Below the pieces are notes generated by a model. The model was not told the origin of the DNA. It ran no database searches and worked only from the letters and a program-made list of their open reading frames with translations. The position numbers were made by a program, and so were the translations under genes. Shown here one piece after another: positions 990 through 27,502 of a stretch of DNA of 34,692 nucleotides (positions within the stretch are counted from its first letter, which is position 1; each line of letters opens with the position of its first letter). Source of the DNA: Saprospiraceae bacterium (lineage in GTDB: Bacteria > Bacteroidota > Bacteroidia > Chitinophagales > Saprospiraceae); the NCBI GenBank assembly GCA_024762995.1, contig JANTGI010000019.1, forward strand, positions 1 through 34,692, written 5' to 3'.

Positions 990-2966
990 GTGTTTCAGGC
1001 CTGTAAGAAGCCTTCGGAGAACTTGATGTCCGAGAATTCGCAGAAAATTGAAACTGTCCAAAGTCGCTCCGAAATCGTGACAAAAAACCTTGAAGGAGAG
1101 ATTAGTTTGGGAAAAAAAAGGCCAAATCCGCTTACTCCTGAAAATATGAAGCAAGCTTATAACAATCTTTATGATAGCAAAATTGAGAAAGTTCTACCAA
1201 CACATAAGTATGTAAGATTTTTGCCTACATTCGCAGAACTTAAGCAATTACAAGATATGGATGATTTAGACCTGATTGATTATCCATTAGATAGAGTCAT
1301 TATTAAAGATGGTTCTTTTTATCATGATCCAAGTATAGGAGCTAATCAAATTACATGGCAATATGCAATTGTTCCCATAGATTTCAAATCTCCAGTTAAT
1401 GTTACTGAAGTTTTAGATGAAATGGTAATTGTTGATTATGATTCACATTGGGTTGAAGAAGCCTATAGAACCCAAGGTCTTGAATACGATGGCACCCCTT
1501 ACGGCAAATATGACCGTTCAATGCCAACAATCGTTGTTACAACTACCGGAGCTGTAATTCTTCCTGATGATGATGACCTAATATGTGGACCTGATTGTGT
1601 AAAAAAGCTTCGCCTAATTGACGATCCAGCACCGGGCCCTATGAAATGGGAATGGTATTGTGACTGTACGACGACGCCCACAGACCCAGACCCCGTAAGA
1701 GCATGTAATTGTAATCCCGTTTCTAATGAACATTTAGCATCAGGCTCTGTATGTGTTTTTGACACTCAACATGGTGGTGGTAGTTTTGAAGGAGTTGAAG
1801 GTGTAATGATTAAGACTTGGAGAAAAAACATTATGTGGGGCTGGGCTTTTAAGAATAGAACATTTACAGATGAAAACGGATGCTGGAGTACCCGAACCTA
1901 CAAAAAGAAAAGATTTGGAAAGTTCAAGAAAGTAACAATTGGTATCAAGTTGAAATTTAAAAACAAACATATCGTTATACGTGGTATGAATGATTCTAAA
2001 GATATTAGTGGTTATTATAACCCGGTAAAGGAAGTAAGAGAAGTAACGGCTGTAGATCTGCGTGGAATCAATTTCTCTTACGGCGAAGCTGGTGGAGGTA
2101 ATACTCCATCTAAACGTTATCATGCAGCTACTGCGATGAATGCCTTTTTTGAATTCAATGATTTTGCTGCTCAAGATGGAATTCCCCAAATTGATAAAAT
2201 TGACGTTTTGCTACATCCTTTTAATCTAGGTGGAGCTTCTGCGCCAATGCTAGACCAAATAAATGGTAATTTATTGAGTGAATTGGGCCAAGCATATGGT
2301 ATGGCTCAAGTACTGAATGCTGCAACCAAATCTAGCCTAGGAACTATTGTCTTTCCTGCAATTGCAATAGGTTGGGTTTTTGCTCCTGATATTACTTATC
2401 CAATTACTTCTTTTAGTACTAAATCTGACCAAATTAAGGAGATTTTTTTCCATGAGTTTGCCCATGCGTCTCACTTCAGTAAAGTTGGTGAAAATTATTG
2501 GAAAGATAATATACAATACGTTGTCGTTAATAATGGATATGGAACAGCCGCGGCACCTGGTTCTGGTCGAACTGCCGTAATTGAAATGTGGGCCTATCAT
2601 TATGGTCCTACACTTGCTGATAGGTTGTATGGGACAATGCATAGTAATACTGTTTTTGGATTAGATAATGACGAAGCAAGGCATATTAATCTACTTGAAA
2701 GACGGATGTTTGCATCTGGCTTTATTCCTGCTGGATTAGTACATGATTTAATTGATAATAATTCATCACCAATTTTAGGCTCTGTGGAGAACCCAGCGGT
2801 AACAACGACTGATATTATTAGTGGATTTAGTCATTCTTCGTTTTTTAACAGACTAAATGCTAGTATTTTATCTCCAACACAGCTTAGAACACCTTTAAGT
2901 AGTGTTGCTCCAAGCGGTGTTACAATTAGTCAAATCAATTCTCTATTTGGAAGCTATGGCTTCTAA
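990..2966 (+). CDS. HEXXH metallopeptidase-like lipoprotein (start out of frame)
   Basis: Predicted extracytoplasmic zinc peptidase-like protein, 658 aa from the in-frame GTG at 990. The motif HEFAH lies at residues 488-492, with a candidate third ligand Glu532 (IEMWAY), 40 residues on, as in gluzincins. A Cys-rich middle section (about 199-256) precedes it. The C-terminus ends in a conserved-looking tail that is repeated in a relic downstream. The protein begins VFQACKK, a good lipobox (FQAC), but the hydrophobic part of the signal peptide lies upstream with no start codon in this frame. The ATG at 952 is one base out of frame, after a run of five A. Adding one A would give a perfect lipoprotein signal MKKVFLFIVSFGLVFQAC. 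So this is either a sequencing error, a phase-variable gene or a fresh mutation. Peptidase activity is inferred from the motif only; the family is not recognised. Confidence 0.75.
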   Translation: MFQACKKPSENLMSENSQKIETVQSRSEIVTKNLEGEISLGKKRPNPLTPENMKQAYNNLYDSKIEKVLPTHKYVRFLPTFAELKQLQDMDDLDLIDYPLDRVIIKDGSFYHDPSIGANQITWQYAIVPIDFKSPVNVTEVLDEMVIVDYDSHWVEEAYRTQGLEYDGTPYGKYDRSMPTIVVTTTGAVILPDDDDLICGPDCVKKLRLIDDPAPGPMKWEWYCDCTTTPTDPDPVRACNCNPVSNEHLASGSVCVFDTQHGGGSFEGVEGVMIKTWRKNIMWGWAFKNRTFTDENGCWSTRTYKKKRFGKFKKVTIGIKLKFKNKHIVIRGMNDSKDISGYYNPVKEVREVTAVDLRGINFSYGEAGGGNTPSKRYHAATAMNAFFEFNDFAAQDGIPQIDKIDVLLHPFNLGGASAPMLDQINGNLLSELGQAYGMAQVLNAATKSSLGTIVFPAIAIGWVFAPDITYPITSFSTKSDQIKEIFFHEFAHASHFSKVGENYWKDNIQYVVVNNGYGTAAAPGSGRTAVIEMWAYHYGPTLADRLYGTMHSNTVFGLDNDEARHINLLERRMFASGFIPAGLVHDLIDNNSSPILGSVENPAVTTTDIISGFSHSSFFNRLNASILSPTQLRTPLSSVAPSGVTISQINSLFGSYGF

Positions 2967-2983
2967 CTATTAATTCACTTCAT

Positions 2984-3016
2984 CTTGCTACTCACTATTT
3001 GTGGGTAGCAAGATTT
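2984..3016 (+). terminator. Terminator after the metallopeptidase-like gene
   Basis: A perfect 8-bp inverted repeat, CTTGCTAC (2984-2991) and GTAGCAAG (3005-3012), is followed by ATTTT. It sits 17 bases after the stop at 2966. A hairpin in the same position follows the relic copy at 3834. Confidence 0.75.
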
Positions 3017-3026
3017 TAAATAAAAT

Positions 3027-3692
3027 ATGATGAAATACTTATTTTCCATCTTTGTTTTGATTACATTTAACATGTCTTGCACTTCTTGTGATTCAATAAG
3101 TCCCGTAGAAAAGTGCTCAAGAGATTTTTTGTTTTCGATTCCTGTAACTTTGAGCCCAGCACTAGACACTTTCAGAATCGGAGACACCATTTTAGTCGAA
3201 ATGAATTTTCCAATAGAAATGGAGGACGTTAATTCTGGTGATACTATCAATATGGCTGACTTTCCTTTTAATACTGAACTAGCATTAGTGAAAATTGACA
3301 CAAATCCTAGTACCAATGGTAATAATATTGTGGAATATTTTTGTTTTGAAGGACAATTAAACATTCAGCCATTGACAGGCGGTGGGCAAGCTGTTCAAAT
3401 CCAGTTTGCAAAAGACACAACTTCTTTTTCTTTTGCGTGCAAGATTTTGTTAAAAAAGAAAGGTGTATTTGCAATTGGTTACGGTTCTTACTTTTTAGAT
3501 GAGTTTGATGGTGAGCTAGAAATAGGTTGTAGGACTAGTTCTGTCGATATCTCGTATCCATTGACTATTAAAAATGGAACGGATAGCTACAATTATCATT
3601 TGATTCAACAAAGCCCTAATCCTAATATTTCAAAGATAACACAAGAAACCTTTGATAAATATGGAGAGTATGCTTTTGTTGTAATTGAATAG
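3027..3692 (+). CDS. Tandem lipoprotein paralog A
   Basis: Lipoprotein of 221 aa, first of three tandem paralogs. The signal peptide has the lipobox NMSC (Cys18) followed by the shared CTSCD. The shared core reads RDF-x-FSIPV, then SPALDTF-x-IGDTI, then a PFN segment and a central F-F-SC-K-I-LKKKG-F motif, ending in FDKYGEYAFVVIE. The content of Thr/Ile/Val and Asp-Thr turns suggests a beta-sandwich fold. Function is unknown. It is closest to paralog C in the core (SPALDTF and IGDTI are shared). The ATG at 3027 is used; a second ATG codon follows at once. It lies about 60 bases downstream of the metallopeptidase-like gene, separated from it by a terminator hairpin, so the two may be transcribed apart but still be functionally linked. 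Confidence 0.85.
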   Translation: MMKYLFSIFVLITFNMSCTSCDSISPVEKCSRDFLFSIPVTLSPALDTFRIGDTILVEMNFPIEMEDVNSGDTINMADFPFNTELALVKIDTNPSTNGNNIVEYFCFEGQLNIQPLTGGGQAVQIQFAKDTTSFSFACKILLKKKGVFAIGYGSYFLDEFDGELEIGCRTSSVDISYPLTIKNGTDSYNYHLIQQSPNPNISKITQETFDKYGEYAFVVIE

Positions 3693-3711
3693 AAGAAAAA
3701 TTTTATCTATC

Positions 3712-3834
3712 TTTAATCAATTAAACGCCAGTGTCTTGTCACCAACACAATTAAGACCACCTTTGAGCGTAGTAACTCCAAGCGGCGTGACAACTGGACA
3801 AATTAACGCTCTGTTTTTAAATTATGGTTTCTAA
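3712..3834 (+). pseudogene. C-terminal relic of a second metallopeptidase copy
   Basis: This stretch, in an otherwise non-coding gap, translates in one frame to a 40-residue sequence ending in a stop. It matches the last 40 residues of the 990-2966 protein: FNQLNAS for FNRLNAS, LSPTQLRPPLS for LSPTQLRTPLS, PSGVTTGQIN for PSGVTISQIN, then a shared YGF end. The DNA is diverged mainly at third positions, as expected for a copy that was under selection for some time before being lost. No start codon or upstream body remains; homology begins 20 bases after the stop of paralog A. Confidence 0.85.
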
Positions 3835-3854
3835 TTATAATCATATTTTGCAAA

Positions 3855-3893
3855 TTAGATCTTACTGCCTGCAAGGTCGGCCGTAAGATCTAA
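3855..3893 (+). terminator. Hairpin retained behind the peptidase relic
   Basis: A perfect 11-bp inverted repeat, TTAGATCTTAC (3855-3865) and GTAAGATCTAA (3883-3893), lies 21 bases after the relic stop. This is the same spacing as the terminator after the intact gene, so it is probably the terminator of the lost copy. Confidence 0.6.
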
Positions 3894-3902
3894 AAATCAA
3901 TA

Positions 3903-4565
3903 ATGATGAAATATATCTATTTTTTCTTAGGCATAATAATGCTCTCATTTTCCTGTACTTCTTGCGACCCAACTGGGGCAAATGTTTGTACAAGAGATTA
4001 TTCATTTACCGTGCCTGTTAAAATAACTCCTATTAGGGATACTTTTCATTTGGGAGATACTTTACAAATTTCTATGAACTTTCCCAAAAACATGATTGAT
4101 AATTCAAGTGATAGTTTTGATTTAAGCGCCTTCCCGTTTAATGCCACAATAGATCTATTAAAAATTGATGAAGCGCCTTTTTCTGATGGACCAGGGATGG
4201 CTTCCTATAAGGCGATAACTGGTGGTATAAATGTTGTTTACTTTTCGGCAACGGCGTCAGAAGAAGTACAAATCGTTTTTGATAAGGCAACTAATCTTTT
4301 TCTATTCTCCTGCAATGTAATTCTAGAAAAAAAAGGTGTTTTTGACTTATCCTATCAATCTGCTGATTTTTTTGATGAATTTAATGAGTTTGACTTCAAA
4401 AATGAATGTAGGACGAATAGTGTCAAGATTTTTTATGACTTAGAAGCTGATTCTACAAAAACTAACTTTGAATTATTAGGCCAAAGTCCTGATTCACAAA
4501 TTGTAGCAATCACAAGAGAAAAATTCGATAAAAGTGGTGGCTTTGCCTTTGTTGTAGTTGATTAG
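3903..4565 (+). CDS. Tandem lipoprotein paralog B
   Basis: Lipoprotein of 220 aa, second paralog. Signal peptide with lipobox SFSC (Cys18), again followed by TSCD. The core motifs match A and C: CTRDY-SFTVPV, DTFHLGDTL, AFPFNATIDLLKID, FLFSCNVILEKKGVF, and the C-terminal FDKSGGFAFVVVD. It is more diverged from A and C than they are from each other in the first third. It appears to be a cell-surface or periplasmic beta-rich protein with no assignable activity. Two internal Cys (in FSCNV and ECRTNS) are conserved across the three and could form a disulfide. The start is set by the signal peptide, and the relic peptidase hairpin lies just upstream. Confidence 0.85.
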   Translation: MMKYIYFFLGIIMLSFSCTSCDPTGANVCTRDYSFTVPVKITPIRDTFHLGDTLQISMNFPKNMIDNSSDSFDLSAFPFNATIDLLKIDEAPFSDGPGMASYKAITGGINVVYFSATASEEVQIVFDKATNLFLFSCNVILEKKGVFDLSYQSADFFDEFNEFDFKNECRTNSVKIFYDLEADSTKTNFELLGQSPDSQIVAITREKFDKSGGFAFVVVD

Positions 4566-4601
4566 AATTAACTTTTGCTAACAAGCGATGATGACATCAG
4601 C

Positions 4602-4632
4602 CACTCCAAATTGGGGTGGTGAGATTTTAAAA
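4602..4632 (+). terminator. Hairpin before paralog C
   Basis: CCACTCC and GGGGTGG form a short stem with a 5-base AT loop, followed by the same GATTTTAAA string that follows the terminator before paralog A. It may be a relic terminator from the duplicated unit. Confidence 0.5.
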
Positions 4633-4641
4633 AACAATCTA

Positions 4642-5298
4642 ATGAATAACATAGTTCTTTTGACTCTAATTTCCCTTTTATTTCTTTCATGTAACTCCTG
4701 TGATACAATAACAAGTCCTAGATGTGAAAGAGATTTTGCTTTTTCAATTCCTGTAAGCTTAAGTCCTGCTCTAGATACTTTTAGTATTGGAGATACAATT
4801 GCAATTGAATTAGAATTTCCAATCCAAATGATTGACGAAATAACTAGTGATACCATTGATATGACAACGTACCCATTTGCTACAACGATTAACTTTGCAC
4901 GCTTAGATACAATTTTAGCAAGTTCTGCTAACACCCTTGTTGAATTTGTTGTAACTCAAGGAGAATTAGAATTTATTCCATTGTTCGGTGGTATTAATAT
5001 AACACATATTACCTACGAGACAATAAATAGTAATTTTGTTTTTTCTTGCAAAGTAGTTTTAAAATCAAAGGGTCTATTCGAATTCGGTAGTGGTTCGATA
5101 AAACCCTATCATGATATCTATCAAGAAATTCAGCCGTCCTGTAAAACAAAATCAGTAGAGATGAAATATGAATTATTACCTAGTGGTGGCGATGATAATT
5201 TTGATTTTTTGGCCTTTAGTCCAGACCCACAGAAGAAAAATTATCCAAATGATAAATTCATAGCCAATAGTGGGTTTGTCTTTTTTGTTACAGATTAA
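4642..5298 (+). CDS. Tandem lipoprotein paralog C
   Basis: Lipoprotein of 218 aa, third paralog. The open frame can start at 4588, but the ATG at 4642 is preferred: it begins the signal peptide (MNNIVLL...FLSC, Cys17) directly and gives a length matching the 220-221 aa paralogs. Motifs are RDFAFSIPVSLSPALDTF, SIGDTIAIE, YPFATTINF, NFVFSCKVVLKSKGLF, and an end FIANSGFVFFVTD. Upstream of 4642 there is a hairpin (CCACTCC/GGGGTGG) followed by GATTTTAAA, the same arrangement seen before paralog A, which also argues against starting at 4588. Function is unknown. Confidence 0.85.
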   Translation: MNNIVLLTLISLLFLSCNSCDTITSPRCERDFAFSIPVSLSPALDTFSIGDTIAIELEFPIQMIDEITSDTIDMTTYPFATTINFARLDTILASSANTLVEFVVTQGELEFIPLFGGINITHITYETINSNFVFSCKVVLKSKGLFEFGSGSIKPYHDIYQEIQPSCKTKSVEMKYELLPSGGDDNFDFLAFSPDPQKKNYPNDKFIANSGFVFFVTD

Positions 5299-20200: not shown

Positions 20201-20666
20201 AGGATCCTTTATCATCGAAGAACTCACGGACTTGGTGGAAGAAGCTGTACTATTGGAGTTTGATCGAATTACGGATAGGGGAGGCGTTCTTGGGGCGATG
20301 GAGACGATGTATCAACGAAGCAAGATTCAGGAGGAAAGCCTTTACTACGAGACCTTGAAAAGCACAGGCGAATTACCGATAATGGGAGTCAATACCTTTT
20401 TGTCGAAAGACGGCTCACCGACTATTATCCCATCCGAAGTTATTCGGGCGGAAGACCAAGAGAAAAAGATGCAAATTAGCTCTTTAAGAGATTTGCATCG
20501 GGCTTATGCGGATAAGAGTCCGATAGCGCTGAAAAAAATTCAGGATGTAGCCCTTTCCGGTGGTAATATCTTTGCAGAAATGATGGAGACGGCCAAGTAT
20601 TGCTCTTTGGGCCAGATAACCAACTCATTATTTAGTGTAGGTGGGGAGTATCGCCGGAGTATGTAA
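17289..20666 (+). CDS. icmF: Fused isobutyryl-CoA mutase IcmF
   Basis: Adenosylcobalamin enzyme of 1125 aa that interconverts isobutyryl-CoA and n-butyryl-CoA. Domains in order: B12-binding (residues about 13-145) with the DGHDAAI ligand motif (His27) and a GGGG turn; MeaB-like G-protein chaperone (about 165-420) with P-loop GTGGAGKSS near 205 and NKFD; then the mutase TIM barrel and substrate domain. The catalytic His is His812 in SISGYHI. At the place where methylmalonyl-CoA mutases bind the carboxylate with Arg, this protein has Gln774 (AQNTCIF), and Phe573 (GVFPF) replaces the Tyr; both mark an isobutyryl-type mutase. The ATG at 17289 is used because a promoter box overlaps the GTG at 17250. 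Likely role: branched-chain or butyrate carbon metabolism. Confidence 0.93.
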
Positions 20667-21149
20667 GTAAGCGAACCCAACTCCCTTTCCTTCTATTCAT
20701 TAAAAAGGAAAGGGAAAGAAGGGACTTAGTTGAGTTCGTGTAAAATAGTGCATTAATCTTTGTGGGATATGAAAAACGAAAATAGCCATAAAGCTATTTT
20801 CGTCATATCATATGGTTAGGCAATAGGCTTCTTCGGTAGTTTTCTCAGTCCGACCTAAGCCGCCTATTAAATCAATGGTTTCGATTCAAGGTTTCATAGT
20901 GTATCAAAACTAAATCATGAGTTCAAGAAACTTTTAGCGCTGTTTTCATCTGACTTCAGCCTAACCAAATACAAAGGTATAGGAAGAAAAAATACCAATG
21001 ATAAAAACTTTGTATTCGTAAAGACTTGGCTTGTATTCGTCTATATCTGCATACAATTGGCTCGAAATTCGGACACATTTATGGAAATACATGCTTGCCA
21101 CCGGATGATGCTCAAACGGGGTGTAATGGTACTTTTCCTTTTATTTTAA
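20667..21149. other. icmF-kinase gap with two hairpins, no gene seen
   Basis: CCCTTTCCTT (20683-20692) pairs with AAGGAAAGGG (20705-20714), extended by an outer CGAAC-/-GTTCG type pairing; this is the likely icmF terminator. A second hairpin has arms at 20766-20786 and 20793-20809 (ACGAAAATAGC/GCTATTTTCGT). The remainder to 21149 has no supported gene. Confidence 0.55.
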
Positions 21150-21157
21150 TAACTTTG
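21150..21157 (+). promoter_or_regulatory. -7 box directly before the first kinase start
   Basis: TAACTTTG matches TAnnTTTG and ends only four bases before the ATG at 21162. If it is the promoter, transcription begins at or next to the start codon and the mRNA is leaderless. Confidence 0.45.
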
Positions 21158-21161
21158 CATC

Positions 21162-22982
21162 ATGAAAAAGACGAAACACATACGCCACTTTTGTAGCCAT
21201 CATGGGGTGTATGTGCTGTTAATTCTCTTTTTTTTAGTCGGTTCGTCGGCACTTTGGGGACAAAAACAGATGGGTTTTTACCACGATAAATTGTACCAAC
21301 TTGCCAAAGAAGATATCAATAGGGCGATAGTATATGGCGACAGCCTTTTGGATGTGCATGCGGAGCCGCGTGATGAAATTCTACACGTCCTTGGAAGCCT
21401 AAATATCGACCGCCATCAAACAAAACTTGCTTACACTTATTTTGCCCAAGAAAAAGAAATCCATGAAAAGTCAGGCAATCAAGTTGGTCTGGCTTATGCA
21501 CTTATCAGGATGGGAGAAGCAAGTATTTATAATCAGCAAAAAGAACAAGCACTTAGCCTTCTAATGGAAGCACTGAATATTGCTAAAAATTTGGGTAACC
21601 AAAAATTAGAAGCTCGATCTTATCATTTTTTAGGACTGATTTATTCTACTTTGGGAGATTTTGAAAAGAGTCTTGATTACACCCAAAAGGCGGCACAACT
21701 TCAAGTCGTACTCCACGATACGACCGGTGTCTCTGAAACTTATAATGATATAGGTACTATTTTTTTAAAAAAAGGAGAGCTAGATAGTGCAAAATACTAT
21801 ATCGAAAAATCACTTTACATAAATAAAAAACGGGGAGATTTGCTTCCCATAATGGTCAATTATTCGATGCTAATGCATGTTTATCGAAAAAAAGGTGACT
21901 TAGAGAAAGCCATATTTTATAACAAAAAAGCCCTACAACTCGAATCCAAAATAAAAACTAATGAACCCCATTTATACTTGACTCTGGCGTCAATGCTTTT
22001 TAAGCAAGGAAAAAAGCAAGAAGCTTATAAATACATGGATATCGCTCTACTACAAGCAAAAAATTCCAATCGAGTAAAAGCTAAAGAAATCGTCCATCGT
22101 CAGCGATTCAAGATGGCACTGCAATCAGGAGACTATAAAAAAGCTCTGTTTTATCAAAATAAAGCGGACTCTCTACTGAGAATGCTACAAAAAAAAGAAA
22201 ATGATGAAAAATTAGCGCTGATCAATAAGCAATACGGTCTCGAAGAAAAAGAAGCGCTCCTTCAAAAAGAATTAGCCATAAACCGTCGAAATAAAATTCT
22301 TTTTGGGACCTTATCCTTATTGTTGCTATTACTGGGAATCAGTATGATGCAAATCAATAAGAATGCTAAACTAAAAAACCAAAAGGAAAGAATTGCCCTA
22401 GAACAACGCATTTTAAGCTCACAGATGAATCCGCATTTTGTCCACAATGTGCTCTCCGCCATCCAAGCGTCTTTACTGAAAAATGACACCTTAAAATCAT
22501 CCGATAGTCTTTCCCAATTTGCCAAACTAATTCGTCAAAATTTTGAGTTTGTCAGTAAGGAAAAGATAAGCTTGGAAGATGACCTTGATGCGCTAAAAAA
22601 CTATATAGATACCCAACGATTCCGGTTTAACAATCAATTTGATTATGAGATTCATGTGGACCCGGATATTGATACTCAAATGGTAAAAATTCCGCCCTTA
22701 TTATTGCAGCCTTTTGTCGAAAATGCCATTGAACATGGGCTTAAAAATTTGCAGAGGAAGGGCTTGCTCAAAATAGACATTACCAAAGTCGATGAAAAGA
22801 TTTGCTTCAAAATTACGGATAACGGGGTGGGTTTAAAAAAGAATTACCCAAAGGGTGATAGGATACATTCATTGATGATTTTTAAAAAGCGTGTCCATTT
22901 GATTAATCCAAATGATTACAAGTCTTTCTCGCTCTCTGATGAGACCGGGGAGACCATTGCAAAATTTTGTTTATCACTATGA
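21162..22982 (+). CDS. TPR sensor histidine kinase, LytS type (kinase 1)
   Basis: Sensor kinase of 606 aa. A signal peptide (to about residue 33, ALWGQ) leads into a periplasmic TPR domain (about 40-345), typical repeats being YHFLGLIYSTLGDFEKSLDY and YNDIGTIFLKKGELDSA. One membrane helix spans about 379-396, and a short coiled coil joins it to a His_kinase (LytS/YehU) domain: phospho-acceptor His425 in QMNPHFVHNVLSAIQ, N-box Asn521 in QPFVENAIEHG, and G-box DNGVG (553-557). Canonical LytS proteins read PHFLFN; here the residue before Asn is His. The gene is first in a three-gene operon; its TGA overlaps the next ATG (ATGA, 22979-22982). The TPR face probably senses a protein or peptide in the periplasm. 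Confidence 0.9.
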   Translation: MKKTKHIRHFCSHHGVYVLLILFFLVGSSALWGQKQMGFYHDKLYQLAKEDINRAIVYGDSLLDVHAEPRDEILHVLGSLNIDRHQTKLAYTYFAQEKEIHEKSGNQVGLAYALIRMGEASIYNQQKEQALSLLMEALNIAKNLGNQKLEARSYHFLGLIYSTLGDFEKSLDYTQKAAQLQVVLHDTTGVSETYNDIGTIFLKKGELDSAKYYIEKSLYINKKRGDLLPIMVNYSMLMHVYRKKGDLEKAIFYNKKALQLESKIKTNEPHLYLTLASMLFKQGKKQEAYKYMDIALLQAKNSNRVKAKEIVHRQRFKMALQSGDYKKALFYQNKADSLLRMLQKKENDEKLALINKQYGLEEKEALLQKELAINRRNKILFGTLSLLLLLLGISMMQINKNAKLKNQKERIALEQRILSSQMNPHFVHNVLSAIQASLLKNDTLKSSDSLSQFAKLIRQNFEFVSKEKISLEDDLDALKNYIDTQRFRFNNQFDYEIHVDPDIDTQMVKIPPLLLQPFVENAIEHGLKNLQRKGLLKIDITKVDEKICFKITDNGVGLKKNYPKGDRIHSLMIFKKRVHLINPNDYKSFSLSDETGETIAKFCLSL

Positions 22983-24850
22983 TGCGTACTCTTTTAAATT
23001 TATTGTCTAGTTATTTACTGCGCCCAAAATATGGCTTTGGTCTAAACCTGACTTTCGTGAAAACTAACCCTATACCACATCTATTGGTCTTGTCGATTCT
23101 GTTTTTTTTATCACCGGCTGCTATTTGGGGACAAAAAAGAGTAGATGAATTTAGGAAAGAAATGAAAAGTATCGCCCAAGCAGATACCAAAAAGGCCATA
23201 GCTTTCGCAAAAGACCGTTTGTCCGCGAATCCCGATTATGCAGAAGATATTTATTATGAAATGGGCCTCTTAGAAATATCAAATCACAACTACCATGAAG
23301 CCATTTCTAGTTTTGAACAAGCAAAGTTACTTTGTGAAAAGAAGGAATTACCGGACAAAATAGCCTTAAATCTCTTGGGACTAGGAGAAGCCCATGCCTA
23401 CTTGAATCATAAGAATCTCGCCATGACGCACATGACAGATGCTTTGTCTATCTCAAAAAAAATCAAAAATAAAGAAGTAGAAGCCAAATCATACATTAAT
23501 ATCGGCTTAATCTATTTCAAACTAGGGAGTTATCGAAAGGCGGCCGACTTTGTCTCTAAGAGCGGAAAAATTCATGAAAATCTAAGAGATTCGGTGGGAA
23601 TAGCCAATGTGTATAATGACCTTGCCGTTATTTATCGACGACTCAATCGACCGGATAGTGCGAAAATATTTATCAACAAAGCCATTGATATTAATCTTTC
23701 TATTGGAGACCCTTTGCCCATCGCTATTGGGTATAGTAACTTGGGAACAATAAATGGGCTTCAGGGTCAGTACATGAAAGCCATAGGCTATTTTAAAAAG
23801 GCTATTGCCATACATCAACAGCTAAAAACCAATAACCCTTTGCCGTATATTAGTTTAGCGAGCACCTATGGAAAAATTCGCAATGATGAAGAAGCCATCA
23901 AATATTATAAAAAGGCCATTGAACTAGCCAAGATTTCCGGTGCGTTAGAGTTGGAAGAGCATGCCTACACCGGTCTGTTAAAAATATTTCTCTACCGAAA
24001 AGAGTATCCAAAATCCATTAACTATCAACAGAAGATTGACTCCATTTCAAAATTGCGGAAGCGAAAAAATAATATAGAAAAGTTGGCACTCGTTAATACG
24101 CAGTACGAACTAAAGCAGAAAGATGATTTATTGCTTCAGAAATTAGCCGTTAGCCAAAGGAATAAATTGATTTTTGGCGGTCTTTCTCTTTTGTTTCTTT
24201 TATTTGGTTTGTATATGATGCAACGCATTCGCAATACGAAACTCAAAAATGAACAAGAAAAATTAATCTTAGAACAACGAATACTCAACTCCCAAATGAA
24301 CCCACATTTTGTGTACAATACTTTGTCGGCGATTCAATCCACCTTACTCAAAAATGATCCTTTGGCTTCCGCCGATAGCTTGTCTCGATTTGCCAAACTA
24401 ATCCGTCAAAATTTTGAATTTGTCAACAAGGCAAAAATAACTTTAGAAGAAGATTTAGATGTTTTAAGAAACTACATTGACACCCAGCGATTCCGTCTGA
24501 ATTACCTTTTTGATTATGAGATAAATATCGATCCGGATATTGATACAGAAGCGGTAGAAATACCACCGTTACTGCTACAGCCCTTTGTTGAAAATGCTAT
24601 TGAACATGGATTAAAACACTTACCGAATAATGGCTTTTTAACCATTAACATCAAAAAGAAAAAAGAGAAAATATGTTTTCAAATTATAGACAATGGTATA
24701 GGTCTTCATCAGAAAGAAAATGACGACAAACTACACTCATTGGAAGTTTTTAAGAAGCGAATTAGTTTAATCAGCAGAGATGATCTCAAATCTTTTAGTC
24801 TTTCCCGCCAATCCGGAAAAACTACTGCACAATTTTGCCTATCCTTATGA
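22979..24850 (+). CDS. TPR sensor histidine kinase, LytS type (kinase 2)
   Basis: Second kinase of 623 aa, a clear paralog of the preceding one over its whole length. The N-terminal signal/anchor is longer (about 50 residues before AAIWGQ), the periplasmic TPRs cover about 55-360, a membrane helix about 397-414, and the kinase domain has His443 in QMNPHFVYNTLSAIQ, the N-box QPFVENAIEHG and the G-box DNGIG. Kinase domains are far more alike than TPR regions, as expected if the inputs have diverged. The ATG at 22979 is used (ATGA overlap with kinase 1); an upstream TTG at 22967 is open but unlikely. Its own stop overlaps the regulator start (24847-24850). It could form heterodimers with kinase 1. 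Confidence 0.9.
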   Translation: MMRTLLNLLSSYLLRPKYGFGLNLTFVKTNPIPHLLVLSILFFLSPAAIWGQKRVDEFRKEMKSIAQADTKKAIAFAKDRLSANPDYAEDIYYEMGLLEISNHNYHEAISSFEQAKLLCEKKELPDKIALNLLGLGEAHAYLNHKNLAMTHMTDALSISKKIKNKEVEAKSYINIGLIYFKLGSYRKAADFVSKSGKIHENLRDSVGIANVYNDLAVIYRRLNRPDSAKIFINKAIDINLSIGDPLPIAIGYSNLGTINGLQGQYMKAIGYFKKAIAIHQQLKTNNPLPYISLASTYGKIRNDEEAIKYYKKAIELAKISGALELEEHAYTGLLKIFLYRKEYPKSINYQQKIDSISKLRKRKNNIEKLALVNTQYELKQKDDLLLQKLAVSQRNKLIFGGLSLLFLLFGLYMMQRIRNTKLKNEQEKLILEQRILNSQMNPHFVYNTLSAIQSTLLKNDPLASADSLSRFAKLIRQNFEFVNKAKITLEEDLDVLRNYIDTQRFRLNYLFDYEINIDPDIDTEAVEIPPLLLQPFVENAIEHGLKHLPNNGFLTINIKKKKEKICFQIIDNGIGLHQKENDDKLHSLEVFKKRISLISRDDLKSFSLSRQSGKTTAQFCLSL

Positions 24851-25581
24851 TTAGAGTTTTTATAGTGGATGATGAAGAAATGGCGCAAAGTGCGTTGACG
24901 CAATTACTTCAATTTATCAAGCCCAAAAGCGAATTGGTGGGGACGGCCCGTAGTGTCTCCGAAAGTGTCGCATTGATTAACAAAACGAAGCCGGATTTAG
25001 TCCTAATGGATATTGAAATTGAAGGGGGAACCGGATTTGATGTTATACAACAACTTTCAAATTTTTCCGGGAAATTGGTATTCACCACAGCGTATTCGCA
25101 ATATGCGGTTCAAGCATTCAAATATAGTGCCTTGGACTACCTGATAAAACCCATTCACTCCGGAGACCTGACAAGAGCGATTGAAAAAGCCATGGAGCTT
25201 ATTAGCATAGAACAAGACTACAAAAAATTAGTACAAGTCTTCAGGGAGAATCAAAACGAAAAGGATAAAAAACTGGTCATCAAAACATCAACGGCGGAGC
25301 ATATCGTATCGGTGAAGGACATTATTAGGATTCAAGCCGATGCCGCCTACTGCACTTTTTATATCAAAGACTCCAAAATTACCGTCTCCAAAAATCTAAA
25401 ATACTATGCGGCTTTCTTAGATGAGCGCCAGTTTGTACGTTGCCATCAATCGCATTTAGTAAATATTGGCTACATCGCCAGTGTTGTCAAAGGAGACCAA
25501 TTGAAACTCAAAAATGGAGAATTGATACCAATCTCTCACCGCAAGAAAACGCTGGTCCTTGATAAAATACGAAATGCTTGA
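24847..25581 (+). CDS. LytTR-family response regulator
   Basis: Response regulator of 244 aa. Receiver domain (1-120): acidic pair DDE at 8-10, phospho-acceptor Asp55 (LVLMDIEIEGG), Thr in TTAYS, and Lys in LIKPIHSGDL. LytTR DNA-binding domain (about 140-244): KTSTAEHIVSVKDIIRIQAD and FVRCHQSHLVNIGYIASV. It is the output of the kinase pair upstream, translated from an ATG that overlaps the kinase 2 stop. A TTG at 24835 is open but less likely. The LytTR targets are not visible; a pair of direct repeats in its own promoter was not found. Confidence 0.93.
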   Translation: MIRVFIVDDEEMAQSALTQLLQFIKPKSELVGTARSVSESVALINKTKPDLVLMDIEIEGGTGFDVIQQLSNFSGKLVFTTAYSQYAVQAFKYSALDYLIKPIHSGDLTRAIEKAMELISIEQDYKKLVQVFRENQNEKDKKLVIKTSTAEHIVSVKDIIRIQADAAYCTFYIKDSKITVSKNLKYYAAFLDERQFVRCHQSHLVNIGYIASVVKGDQLKLKNGELIPISHRKKTLVLDKIRNA

Positions 25582-25745
25582 GAAATGATATGAGTGGGTG
25601 ATGGGCACAGTCGGGTATTGTCCCCCTATTTTAAAGGATAGAACACCGACCCGCCTGCTGTGCGGCTGGCAGGTTTGACGGGGCTGTACGGATTTTAATT
25701 TGCGAAAGTAGTTTAAATGACGGATTTTTACGGATTTGCCCTTCT

Positions 25746-25946
25746 AAACTCGAAAAAGTACTCCATGACGCAACCATTTACGTGTTAGATGGTCATGGAA
25801 ATATGAAGTTTACCGCAAAAATCTAACAACAAGAAGAGCAATTTGATTTGAATGCAGCGGGCTGGTCATCAGGTACCTATTTTTGTATTTATCAAAGTAA
25901 AACAGGGTATAAATCGATCATACCATTTAATGTTTCTGATTATTAA
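25746..25946 (+). pseudogene. Relic of a T9SS type A sorting domain
   Basis: One frame reads KLEKVLHDATIYVLDGHG, then continues to a stop (25824-25826), then QFDLNAAGWSSGTYFCIYQ and KTGYKSIIPFNVSDY before a final stop at 25944-25946. The pattern of a beta-strand, a D-x-x-G turn, a D-L-x-x-x-x-S-G-x-Y motif and a last strand is that of the Por-secretion type A C-terminal domain. No upstream protein body is left; GC-rich repeat DNA precedes it (25655-25690). It is the last trace of a surface protein gene just before a split gene of the same secretion class. Confidence 0.7.
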
Positions 25947-25958
25947 AACAAAGAGCAG

Positions 25959-27110
25959 ATGAAGGTCAAGCGTTTATTGTTCGTTTTTATGCTGTTGGTA
26001 ATCTCTTTGATTGCTTCTGGACAGAATTTTAACCAAAGGTTTCGTTTTGAGAAGCTAGGTGTTTTGTTTTATAATATTAAAAGTCACGGAGATACGCTAG
26101 TAGTGATTGGTTCTGTTAATTTAGAGTTTGAGCCTTATTACCCTGCTAAGCTGACGGTCTCAAAGTTTGATTCTTCGGGTTCTCATTATTATAATCAATA
26201 TTTTGTTCTAGACAGTGCTAAAGCGTATTATCCATTCTCTTCGCGTACACATGGGAATAAAACACTTGTTACGGATTCGGCTGGATATTATAATTCGGGT
26301 GGTCAGTGGGGCTTTATTGGAATGTTGGATTCTAATTATACAGTACAATGGCAGAAGGACTATGAACCCAATAATGGAAACTATTTCTATTATTTTGTAG
26401 GGGGTGAATTAGATGCAAATGGTCATATTATTGCTGTTGCTGCCAATGCTGTGTCAGAAGATGTGACGACGCACTTGACTAAATTTGATAGTTTAGGAAA
26501 TTTGGTATGGGAGAGAGAGTATAAGTTTGATGAATTGAATAAATATAAGCCATGGAGTATGCTACTGCAAAATGATACAACGTACTTGTTGGGTTTAGAG
26601 ATTTATCCAAAGGATGGCGGCACCTTAGCATCCGTCCGCAATGCCATCATCAAGACGGATTCATCAGGTAATGTCCTGCATTTTTGGGAGGATACAACAG
26701 GGATAGGTGGCCGGGGTGTACAGAAGATGATGTCGATGGATGATGGTGGGGTGTTGTTTGTTGGTAAGCGATACTTTAAAGATACGATAATTGGGATTCC
26801 AAACTCCGCATTGCATAACATGTCGCAATCCTATATCTGTCGATTGGATAGTAACTTTAATAAGGTTTGGGAGCGAGATGTAGGCCTGTACGCTGGCTCA
26901 CCTTCCCTAACGGATGTTAGTTTGTATGATTTTATCCAATTAGCAGATGGAGATTACGTGGGGGTAGGGTACTCCGGTGGTATTCCGACAGTAATAGACG
27001 ATATTCTGTATTATAAAAGAAACGGTTTGGTGGTTAAGTTTACTGCCGATGGAGAGATAATCTGGGAGCGATATCATAATTACTTTCCGGATATACATGT
27101 TCTTCAATAA
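25959..27110 (+). CDS. T9SS-secreted repeat protein, 5' part of a split gene
   Basis: Encodes 383 aa with an N-terminal signal peptide (MKVKRLLFVFMLLVISLIASGQ). The body has repeated segments such as LTKFDSLGNLVWEREY, AIIKTDSSGNVLHFWEDT and YICRLDSNFNKVWERD, which is the pattern of delta-60/propeller-like repeats found in many T9SS cargo proteins. The frame ends at 27108-27110, but the missing C-terminus continues in another frame immediately after (SITPLHGVIELADG, joined to the piece starting near 27104). A one-base deletion between about 27090 and 27107 explains it. Whole protein length would be near 514 aa. Role unknown; likely cell-surface or secreted. Confidence 0.75.
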   Translation: MKVKRLLFVFMLLVISLIASGQNFNQRFRFEKLGVLFYNIKSHGDTLVVIGSVNLEFEPYYPAKLTVSKFDSSGSHYYNQYFVLDSAKAYYPFSSRTHGNKTLVTDSAGYYNSGGQWGFIGMLDSNYTVQWQKDYEPNNGNYFYYFVGGELDANGHIIAVAANAVSEDVTTHLTKFDSLGNLVWEREYKFDELNKYKPWSMLLQNDTTYLLGLEIYPKDGGTLASVRNAIIKTDSSGNVLHFWEDTTGIGGRGVQKMMSMDDGGVLFVGKRYFKDTIIGIPNSALHNMSQSYICRLDSNFNKVWERDVGLYAGSPSLTDVSLYDFIQLADGDYVGVGYSGGIPTVIDDILYYKRNGLVVKFTADGEIIWERYHNYFPDIHVLQ

Positions 27111-27148
27111 CTCCGTTACATGGAGTCATAGAGCTAGCTGATGGGAGT

Positions 27149-27502
27149 TTGGTTGCTTGTGGGGTTGCAGAAGAAATTGATGGCGACTATCCACAACAAG
27201 GTTGGTTGATTAAGATGTTTTCCAATGGGCTGATAGATAGTGTGAATCAGGTTTTTGACTTAGGGCCTAGATTATCTAGTGAGTTACAAGTGATGCCTAA
27301 TCCGAGTTGGGATTATGTGGATGTAACACTTGAAGGCGGTGTGATTAACGCCTTGCAGATATACAATACAGAAGGGCGGCTGATGCTTACTACCGAGTCT
27401 AGTGTGCAAAGAAAGCGACTTGATGTAGGGCATTTTCCGCAAGGAATTTACTATATTGTGGTGAATGGGGCTTATGTGCAGCGGTTTGTGGTTGGGAACT
27501 AG
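27149..27502 (+). CDS. T9SS type A sorting domain, 3' part of the split gene
   Basis: A 117-codon open frame that carries on the preceding protein in the -1 frame; its reading extends upstream without a stop to about 27104. It includes VACGVAEEIDGDYPQQGWLIKMF, one more repeat unit, and then a type A Por-secretion C-terminal domain: MPNPSWDYVDVTL, the ALQIYNTEGRLM strand, and the LDVGHFPQGIYYIVV end. The TTG at 27149 is only the first start-like codon and is probably not used. Without the frameshift the cargo would be secreted and anchored by this domain; with it the 5' part lacks a sorting signal. Confidence 0.7.
   Translation: MVACGVAEEIDGDYPQQGWLIKMFSNGLIDSVNQVFDLGPRLSSELQVMPNPSWDYVDVTLEGGVINALQIYNTEGRLMLTTESSVQRKRLDVGHFPQGIYYIVVNGAYVQRFVVGN

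Follow-up and report, generated by a model that had tools for sequence, protein, structure and literature searches.

A tandem pair of TPR/LytS sensor kinases preceding a single LytTR response regulator in a Saprospiraceae bacterium

Sensor kinases are usually viewed as homodimers with one regulator each. Here we describe a three-gene locus in which two paralogous sensor kinases, K1 and K2, precede a single response regulator (RR); it lies in a 34,692-nucleotide stretch of DNA from a Saprospiraceae bacterium (GenBank assembly GCA_024762995.1, contig JANTGI010000019.1), the whole of which is hereafter called the window. The building blocks of this locus, LytS-type kinases and LytTR regulators, are known, and for two kinases at one locus a counterpart, FasBCA, has been studied. 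In its accessible portion, the report on the FasB/FasC/FasA system (FasBCAX) of Streptococcus pyogenes gives data for FasB-FasC heterodimers, for a dispensable FasC kinase domain and for phosphorylation of FasA at D60; the same portion terms FasA ComE-like and reports of heterodimerizing sensor kinases rare, proposes that FasC is a pseudokinase, and assigns FasB and FasC six predicted transmembrane segments, with no tetratricopeptide repeat (TPR) sensor among the domains it names (PMC12675982). As in the window, one response regulator gene shares its locus with two genes for sensor-kinase-like proteins, whereas K1 and K2 each have one transmembrane helix and a TPR sensor and both look catalytically intact. 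The single degenerate partner of a FasBCA-like system is not seen in K1/K2; an asymmetry between partners is seen in a group of at least 20 short tandem pairs described below. We take FasB and FasC, of the AgrC/ComD kinase class, to be of a class other than that of K1 and K2; a ComE-like regulator is one with a LytTR domain.

BtsS/BtsR and YpdA/YpdB of Escherichia coli consist, like the window locus, of a LytS-type kinase and a LytTR regulator, and appear as two similar systems in the accessible part of one study (PMC5552118), with BtsS described in the accessible part of another as a 7-transmembrane receptor (PMC10653868), in contrast to the TPR sensor of K1 and K2. Both systems have one kinase per regulator, unlike the window. 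ChrS and HrrS of Corynebacterium glutamicum belong to a different kinase class from K1 and K2. According to the accessible text, these paralogous kinases heterodimerize with one catalytic and ATP-binding domain inactivated, but they belong to two separate two-component systems and the ChrS pseudokinase arose in laboratory evolution (PMC9491836), whereas the window pair occupies one locus. Loci of Bacteroidota with a TPR/LytS kinase and a LytTR regulator share domains, similar size and gene order with the window, and a single kinase was present in all 14 such loci read other than the window (L047-L051, L054, L055, L064, L079, L080, L082 and L119-L121). We found no report of tandem LytS kinases preceding a single LytTR regulator in Bacteroidota among the titles and abstract openings of the open-access literature retrieved with the terms used.

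Two paralogous kinases before one regulator

In both kinases, TPR_12 and His_kinase (PF06580) matched above the Pfam cut-offs, the latter with 61.3 bits in K1 and 62.3 bits in K2 (cut-off 25.2), and RR combines a receiver domain (Response_reg, 70.3 bits; cut-off 30.2) with a LytTR domain (60.3 bits; cut-off 22.6). K1 and K2 are 47.9% identical over 593 alignment columns, with 68.1% identity in the kinase part (77.5% in the His_kinase domain) and 32.2% in the TPR part, and their sensors align end to end, indicating diverged copies of one design. Codon positions 1, 2 and 3 are identical at 59, 71 and 39%, respectively, the pattern of coding constraint, and the H-box (NPHF), N-box (ENAIEHG) and G-box (DNGxG) are kept in both proteins (Table 1). 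Thus, the open reading frames (ORFs), the Pfam matches and the overall identity bear out the original prediction, made from the sequence alone, of two full-length paralogous kinases ahead of one shared LytTR regulator, with similar kinase domains and different TPR sensors. It had also been correctly observed that the residue preceding the H-box Asn (position H+3, counted from the phospho-accepting His) is His in K1 and Tyr in K2.

Table 1. Features of the kinase-kinase-regulator locus, in window coordinates
Feature	Position	Strand	Basis or detail
K1, TPR/LytS sensor kinase, 606 aa	21162..22982	+	ORF and Pfam
K2, TPR/LytS sensor kinase, 623 aa, K1 paralogue	22979..24850	+	ORF and Pfam
RR, response regulator with receiver and LytTR DNA-binding domains, 244 aa	24847..25581	+	ORF and Pfam
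K1/K2 ATGA stop/start overlap, predicted (start use not proven)	22979..22982	+	reads ATGATG at 22979
K2/RR ATGA stop/start overlap	24847..24850	+	reads ATGATT at 24847
K1 H-box, NPHFVHN	22428..22448	+	phospho-accepting His 22434-22436; H+3 His 22443-22445
K2 H-box, NPHFVYN	24299..24319	+	phospho-accepting His 24305-24307; H+3 Tyr 24314-24316
K1 N-box, PPLLLQPFVENAIEHG, intact	22692..22739	+	
K2 N-box, PPLLLQPFVENAIEHG, intact	24563..24610	+	

The two proteins have the same order of segments. K1 begins with a hydrophobic, signal-like N-terminus (residues 15-33), followed by the TPR array, a transmembrane segment (residues 379-397), His_kinase and HATPase domains, and K2 has a hydrophobic N-terminal segment, a TPR region, a transmembrane segment (residues 397-415) and a kinase; from this order, the TPR part of both is predicted to be periplasmic. 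In an AlphaFold2 model of K2, built from a 12-sequence alignment (mean predicted local distance difference test score [pLDDT] 80.5, predicted template modelling score 0.52), TPR helix pairs span residues ~85-339 and are followed by one continuous helix (residues 343-438) running through the transmembrane segment towards the H-box, beyond which lie more helices and the ATP-binding domain. Comparisons of K2 with PDB entries placed eukaryotic and designed TPR proteins on top, offering little information on ligands, and the histidine kinase 6swj matched K2 profile positions 436-581. A separate feature of the C-termini is that the Gly of SLGL, found in the ATP lid region of the kinases of another locus (L068, see below), is replaced by M, E or D in six of six aligned kinases of the K1/K2 subfamily.

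Overlapping stop and start codons had been proposed at both gene joints, and both indeed read ATGA. At the K2/RR joint the overlap is firm, given that the receiver domain starts at residue 4 of RR, and the same overlap is present at the kinase/RR joint of a related genome (G004, locus L079). At the K1/K2 joint, by contrast, use of the start is unproven: an in-frame GTG at 23057, 74 bp past the K1 stop codon, would shorten K2 by 26 residues and abolish the overlap. The resulting N-terminus (VKTNPIPH...) aligns with that of K1 in the K1/K2 alignment, and about half of the residues that would be dropped fall within a stretch (residues 14-31) with pLDDT below 50, so the overlap is present in the DNA but can be read in either way.

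We favour, with modest confidence, the interpretation that both kinases are active and, through different TPR sensors, act on the one LytTR regulator; the locus would be a two-component module of three genes, in which two inputs converge on a single output. Both proteins would be inner-membrane kinases competent for catalysis, in which a TPR sensor in the periplasm, one transmembrane helix and a long helix are followed by the LytS-type kinase; the diverged sensors would read different ligands or partner proteins, and the closely similar dimerization and phospho-accepting domains of both kinases would give phosphate to the single regulator. What the sequences show is the order of the genes, their domains, catalytic boxes kept intact in both kinases, evolutionary rates without a detected asymmetry, and paralogy, the old age of which is supported by the TPR part; kinase activity, phosphotransfer to RR and different ligands for K1 and K2 are predictions from sequence. 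Given the identity of their His_kinase domains, mixed K1/K2 dimers are plausible. In G004, the corresponding slot holds one kinase of the same family before an RR, indicating that a kinase-RR pair can act alone there. Several points weigh against this interpretation. HATPase_c matched below the cut-off in both (19.9 and 23.6 versus 26.4 bits), the uncommon His at H+3 could alter the activity of K1, and the TPR-type pair was found in one genome only, that of the window. Furthermore, one partner is without a catalytic box in five of eight readable tandem pairs (L093-L097) of a survey described below, which favours heterodimers in general.

Relatives of the locus and age of the duplication

The K1/K2 subfamily is rare. 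It was found in three of 298 genomes of the family at E<=1e-60 and in three of 398 with K1 as the query at 1e-55, the three being the window genome (G000), G004 from the same genus, and G062. In a phylum-wide sample, it was present in four of 395 genomes, namely, the window genome itself and three from another family of the class. The slot in G004 contains one kinase and an RR with 59% identity, flanked by a methylmalonyl-CoA-mutase-like gene (88%) and htpG (89.5%). In G002, the same flanks (mutase-like gene 89% identical) enclose a 246-aa ORF, with neither kinase nor RR. Among the other congeners, the contig of G003 ends at the slot and G001 gave no flank match at 1e-200. The three readable congeners thus hold two (window genome), one (G004) and no (G002) kinases in this slot. 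A plasmid search matched 380 records, none covering more than 80% of K2. Elsewhere in G004 (contig C50; L081:3435-5129), the N-terminus of a lone TPR/LytS kinase of the subfamily looks, by eye, like that of a lipoprotein (LLQSC), and the 8.5 kb read yielded no regulator.

To place the duplication, we compared three topologies for six sequences with approximately unbiased (AU) tests. For the TPR domain, p-AU was 0.0176 for K1 with K2, 0.983 for K1 with the G004 kinase and 0.0181 for K2 with the G004 kinase, and residues 36 onward gave a similar result (0.0203, 0.988 and 0.0213, respectively); the kinase domain does not discriminate (0.25, 0.356 and 0.736). With K1 joined to the G004 kinase in the TPR tree, K2 appears to be an older paralogue that was lost in G004, and the simplest reading, which these tests support without proving it, is that the duplication predates the split of G000 and G004. 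A recent duplication in the window strain is rejected by the TPR-domain test, the kinase domain leaving it possible. Gene conversion evening out the kinase domains was also considered and is not claimed, the site patterns being 75/46/52 in the TPR domain plus stalk and 14/17/22 in the kinase domain (p=0.08). One might imagine, purely as an idea, that the G004 kinase arose by recombinational collapse of the pair, with a front from K1 and a back from K2; the best kinase-domain tree joins K2 with the G004 kinase, non-significantly. The original prediction named a duplication confined to this strain as a result that would speak against it, and here the outcome is divided: the TPR-type pair is seen in the window only, all 14 other loci read being single, yet the TPR tree places the duplication before the split of G000 and G004, and tandem pairs recur in other LytS classes.

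Relaxed selection on one kinase, likewise named as contrary evidence, was not seen. None of nine relative-rate tests for a difference between K1 and K2 (three outgroups by three overlapping regions) gave p<0.05, the lowest value being 0.078. These tests also bear on whether the pair is an assembly artefact or a decaying duplicate. The draft genome comprises 241 contigs and the pair was seen in no second genome, but copies just 47.9% identical are unlikely to result from misassembly of one gene, and open frames, intact boxes, a coding codon pattern and the lack of acceleration make either explanation highly improbable.

The contrast between His and Tyr at H+3 proved less telling than had been supposed. 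Of 63 distinct kinases, 36 carry Tyr at this position, 26 Phe and one, K1, His, with the Tyr count inflated by the QMNPHFVY pattern used in the genome scan; the kinase in the corresponding slot of G004 has Tyr, and K1 is the sole one with His among six aligned subfamily kinases, the others having Tyr or Phe. However, a DNA pattern for NPHFxHN matched in 28 of the 398 family genomes, which represent 17 of 112 genera, compared with five genomes for a reversed-pattern control, and the matches in at least G013 (contig C197) and G022 (contig C6) lie within PF06580 matches. The His therefore cannot serve as a mark unique to the window system; it looks derived in K1, rare and recurrent. The region beside the H-box Asn holds phosphatase residues in other kinase families, and the position of the K1 His next to this conserved Asn, together with the similarity of the kinase domains, would suit a second copy that opposes or tunes the first, one being mainly a kinase and the other mainly a phosphatase, or a pair that merely adds dosage. 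We regard this as quite unlikely, given that neither K1 nor K2 has lost a catalytic box, that 32% identity of the TPR domains speaks against plain dosage, and that the recurrence of the His across the family makes it nothing special to the window pair.

Tandem LytS pairs in the family

The layout with two kinases before one regulator is not restricted to TPR-type sensors. In 25 family genomes picked by hand according to match count (20 with few and five with many matches; a non-random set including the window genome), 277 PF06580 matches yielded nine same-strand neighbouring pairs in seven genomes, read by eye from listings, with the match counts (135 and 142) as a check. One regulator follows eight of the nine pairs, the window counted, the ninth running off its contig, and receiver and LytTR domains were found in the regulators of all seven non-window pairs scanned. 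Outside this survey, an uncultured Saprospiraceae locus (L068:808-7511) encodes two ~975-aa LytS kinases, 61.7% identical, and then one LytTR regulator. The kinases of each of the pairs L068, L092, L093 and L098 are sisters in the tree (support 99.6-100), so the two-kinase layout arose several times, L068 representing a separate duplication. Catalytic boxes are symmetric in the window pair and L098, and nearly so in L092, the downstream kinase of which has Tyr at the N-box His position; L099, with its second kinase cut by the contig end, was left out. Among the five aligned pairs outside both the window and the short-pair group described below (L068, L092, L093, L095 and L098), two are asymmetric, including L095 with an upstream kinase without an N-box, and three are roughly symmetric. 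In L093 (positions 2185-4965), the downstream kinase reads KPYFLFN, with Tyr substituted for the phospho-accepting His, and has an intact N-box; a single LytTR regulator comes after the pair.

A profile of the upstream kinases of L094, L096 and L097, run over 398 family genomes, revealed at least 20 tandem pairs, spread over 19 genomes from 13 genera, among the best ~150 matches, with up to five candidates scored per genome (L094, L096, L097, L131 and L134-L149). Selected by similarity to three degenerate kinases, these short pairs are one related group, not all tandem pairs. A regulator directly follows 18 of the 20 pairs, with receiver and LytTR domains in each case, and the other two stop at a contig edge; in L147, a second gene of this kind also lies upstream. 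If the first possible start is taken, 12 of the 20 pairs show a 4-bp overlap between the two kinase genes. In the tree, the downstream kinases form one clade (98.6/99) and the upstream kinases two (90.8/99 and 100/100), all 40 grouping together without other kinases, albeit weakly (74.9/78).

The two partners of the short pairs differ consistently in their catalytic motifs. PF06580 was matched in all 20 upstream and all 20 downstream kinases (E 0.01), and PHFLFN with the phospho-accepting His is kept in every upstream kinase. The N-box His, by contrast, is present in none of the upstream kinases, in all 20 downstream partners and in 66 of 69 control kinases, and the N-box Asn is kept in nine, 20 and 69, respectively, L097 being among the loci with an upstream kinase that has lost it; the nine upstream keepers count against a simple reading. 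Fisher tests gave p values of 1e-11 and 4e-17 for the His and of 1e-4 and 5e-9 for the Asn (against downstream and control kinases, respectively), values that are overstated, the rows being related. The controls came from loci fetched for other reasons, many of them selected by an H-box pattern, and included K1 and K2. In other kinase families, a Tyr in place of the N-box His is normal, and the upstream kinase of L138 has such a Tyr with the Asn kept (ENAFTYN), so not every upstream kinase need be dead; with Tyr accepted, the counts become one of 20 upstream, all 20 downstream and 68 of 69 control kinases. HATPase_c was found in neither set of 20 at E 0.01, and the G-box region of the downstream kinases is not of the DNGxG type; "intact", for these kinases, accordingly refers to the H- and N-boxes. 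The ratio of nonsynonymous to synonymous substitution rates (dN/dS) was 0.09-0.22 for upstream and 0.08-0.21 for downstream genes in 13 comparisons with usable dS from eight of the 20 loci, many with dS above 1, and dS was saturated in five more. These low values point to purifying selection on both genes and thus to upstream partners that are maintained genes, at the eight measurable loci.

For the short pairs, the better model is trans-phosphorylation, in which the downstream partner would phosphorylate the His of the upstream kinase, as has been suggested for FasB/FasC. For the window, an obligate heterodimer, one of the options in the original prediction, is left unsupported by the H-, N- and G-boxes, which are kept in both kinases and reveal no division of labour, and the G004 locus makes do with a single kinase, placed with K1 by the TPR tree, so that the partner is dispensable in that lineage. 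An obligate or preferred K1/K2 heterodimer that phosphorylates RR in the manner of FasB/FasC is therefore unlikely in our view, even though FasB and FasC, in the accessible portion of the report, interact in a two-hybrid assay without self-association in it (PMC12675982), pairs with one degenerate partner make up a group in 13 genera among the matches listed, and K1 and K2 lie side by side, with translational coupling should the ATG be the start. More broadly, it is possible, though on the whole doubtful, that tandem LytS-LytS-LytTR loci are a distinct, repeatedly evolved class in which duplicates sharing one regulator drift to obligate heterodimers. The conserved end state would be an upstream kinase that, having retained its phospho-accepting His but lost the ability to bind ATP, receives phosphate in trans from an intact downstream partner, and K1/K2 would represent a still-symmetric TPR-sensor stage, already a mixed dimer.

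Flanking DNA and meaning of the pair

Scans of positions 20600-26000 yielded 17 promoter-like sites (16.0 expected) and six terminator-like sites (4.1 expected) and were uninformative. Directly upstream, TAACTTTGC at 21150-21158 ends 3 bp ahead of the K1 ATG and has four copies in the window, counting both strands, versus 0.46 expected. It resembles what we take to be the Bacteroidota -7 promoter box, a role that would leave the K1 mRNA almost leaderless; the two-box promoter pattern does not match at this site. Downstream (25959-27502), a 383-aa ORF and a 117-aa ORF lie in different frames 38 bp apart, the latter with a secretion-type C-terminal tail (by eye), and the two are possibly one frameshifted secreted protein. 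At the matching place, G004 has a 313-aa ORF (L079:2342-3283) with no detectable similarity to the 383-aa ORF.

The window locus is a real, intact and so far single TPR-type case of a recurring layout. With two, one or no kinases in congeners, its slot offers a natural comparison for the wiring of a second input to an existing regulator. The pair matters mainly as a lead to a group of asymmetric LytS pairs maintained across many genera: the tandem pairs, at least 20 in number, in which the upstream kinase retains the phospho-accepting His and the N-box His is gone constitute a natural set for the evolution of heterodimers.

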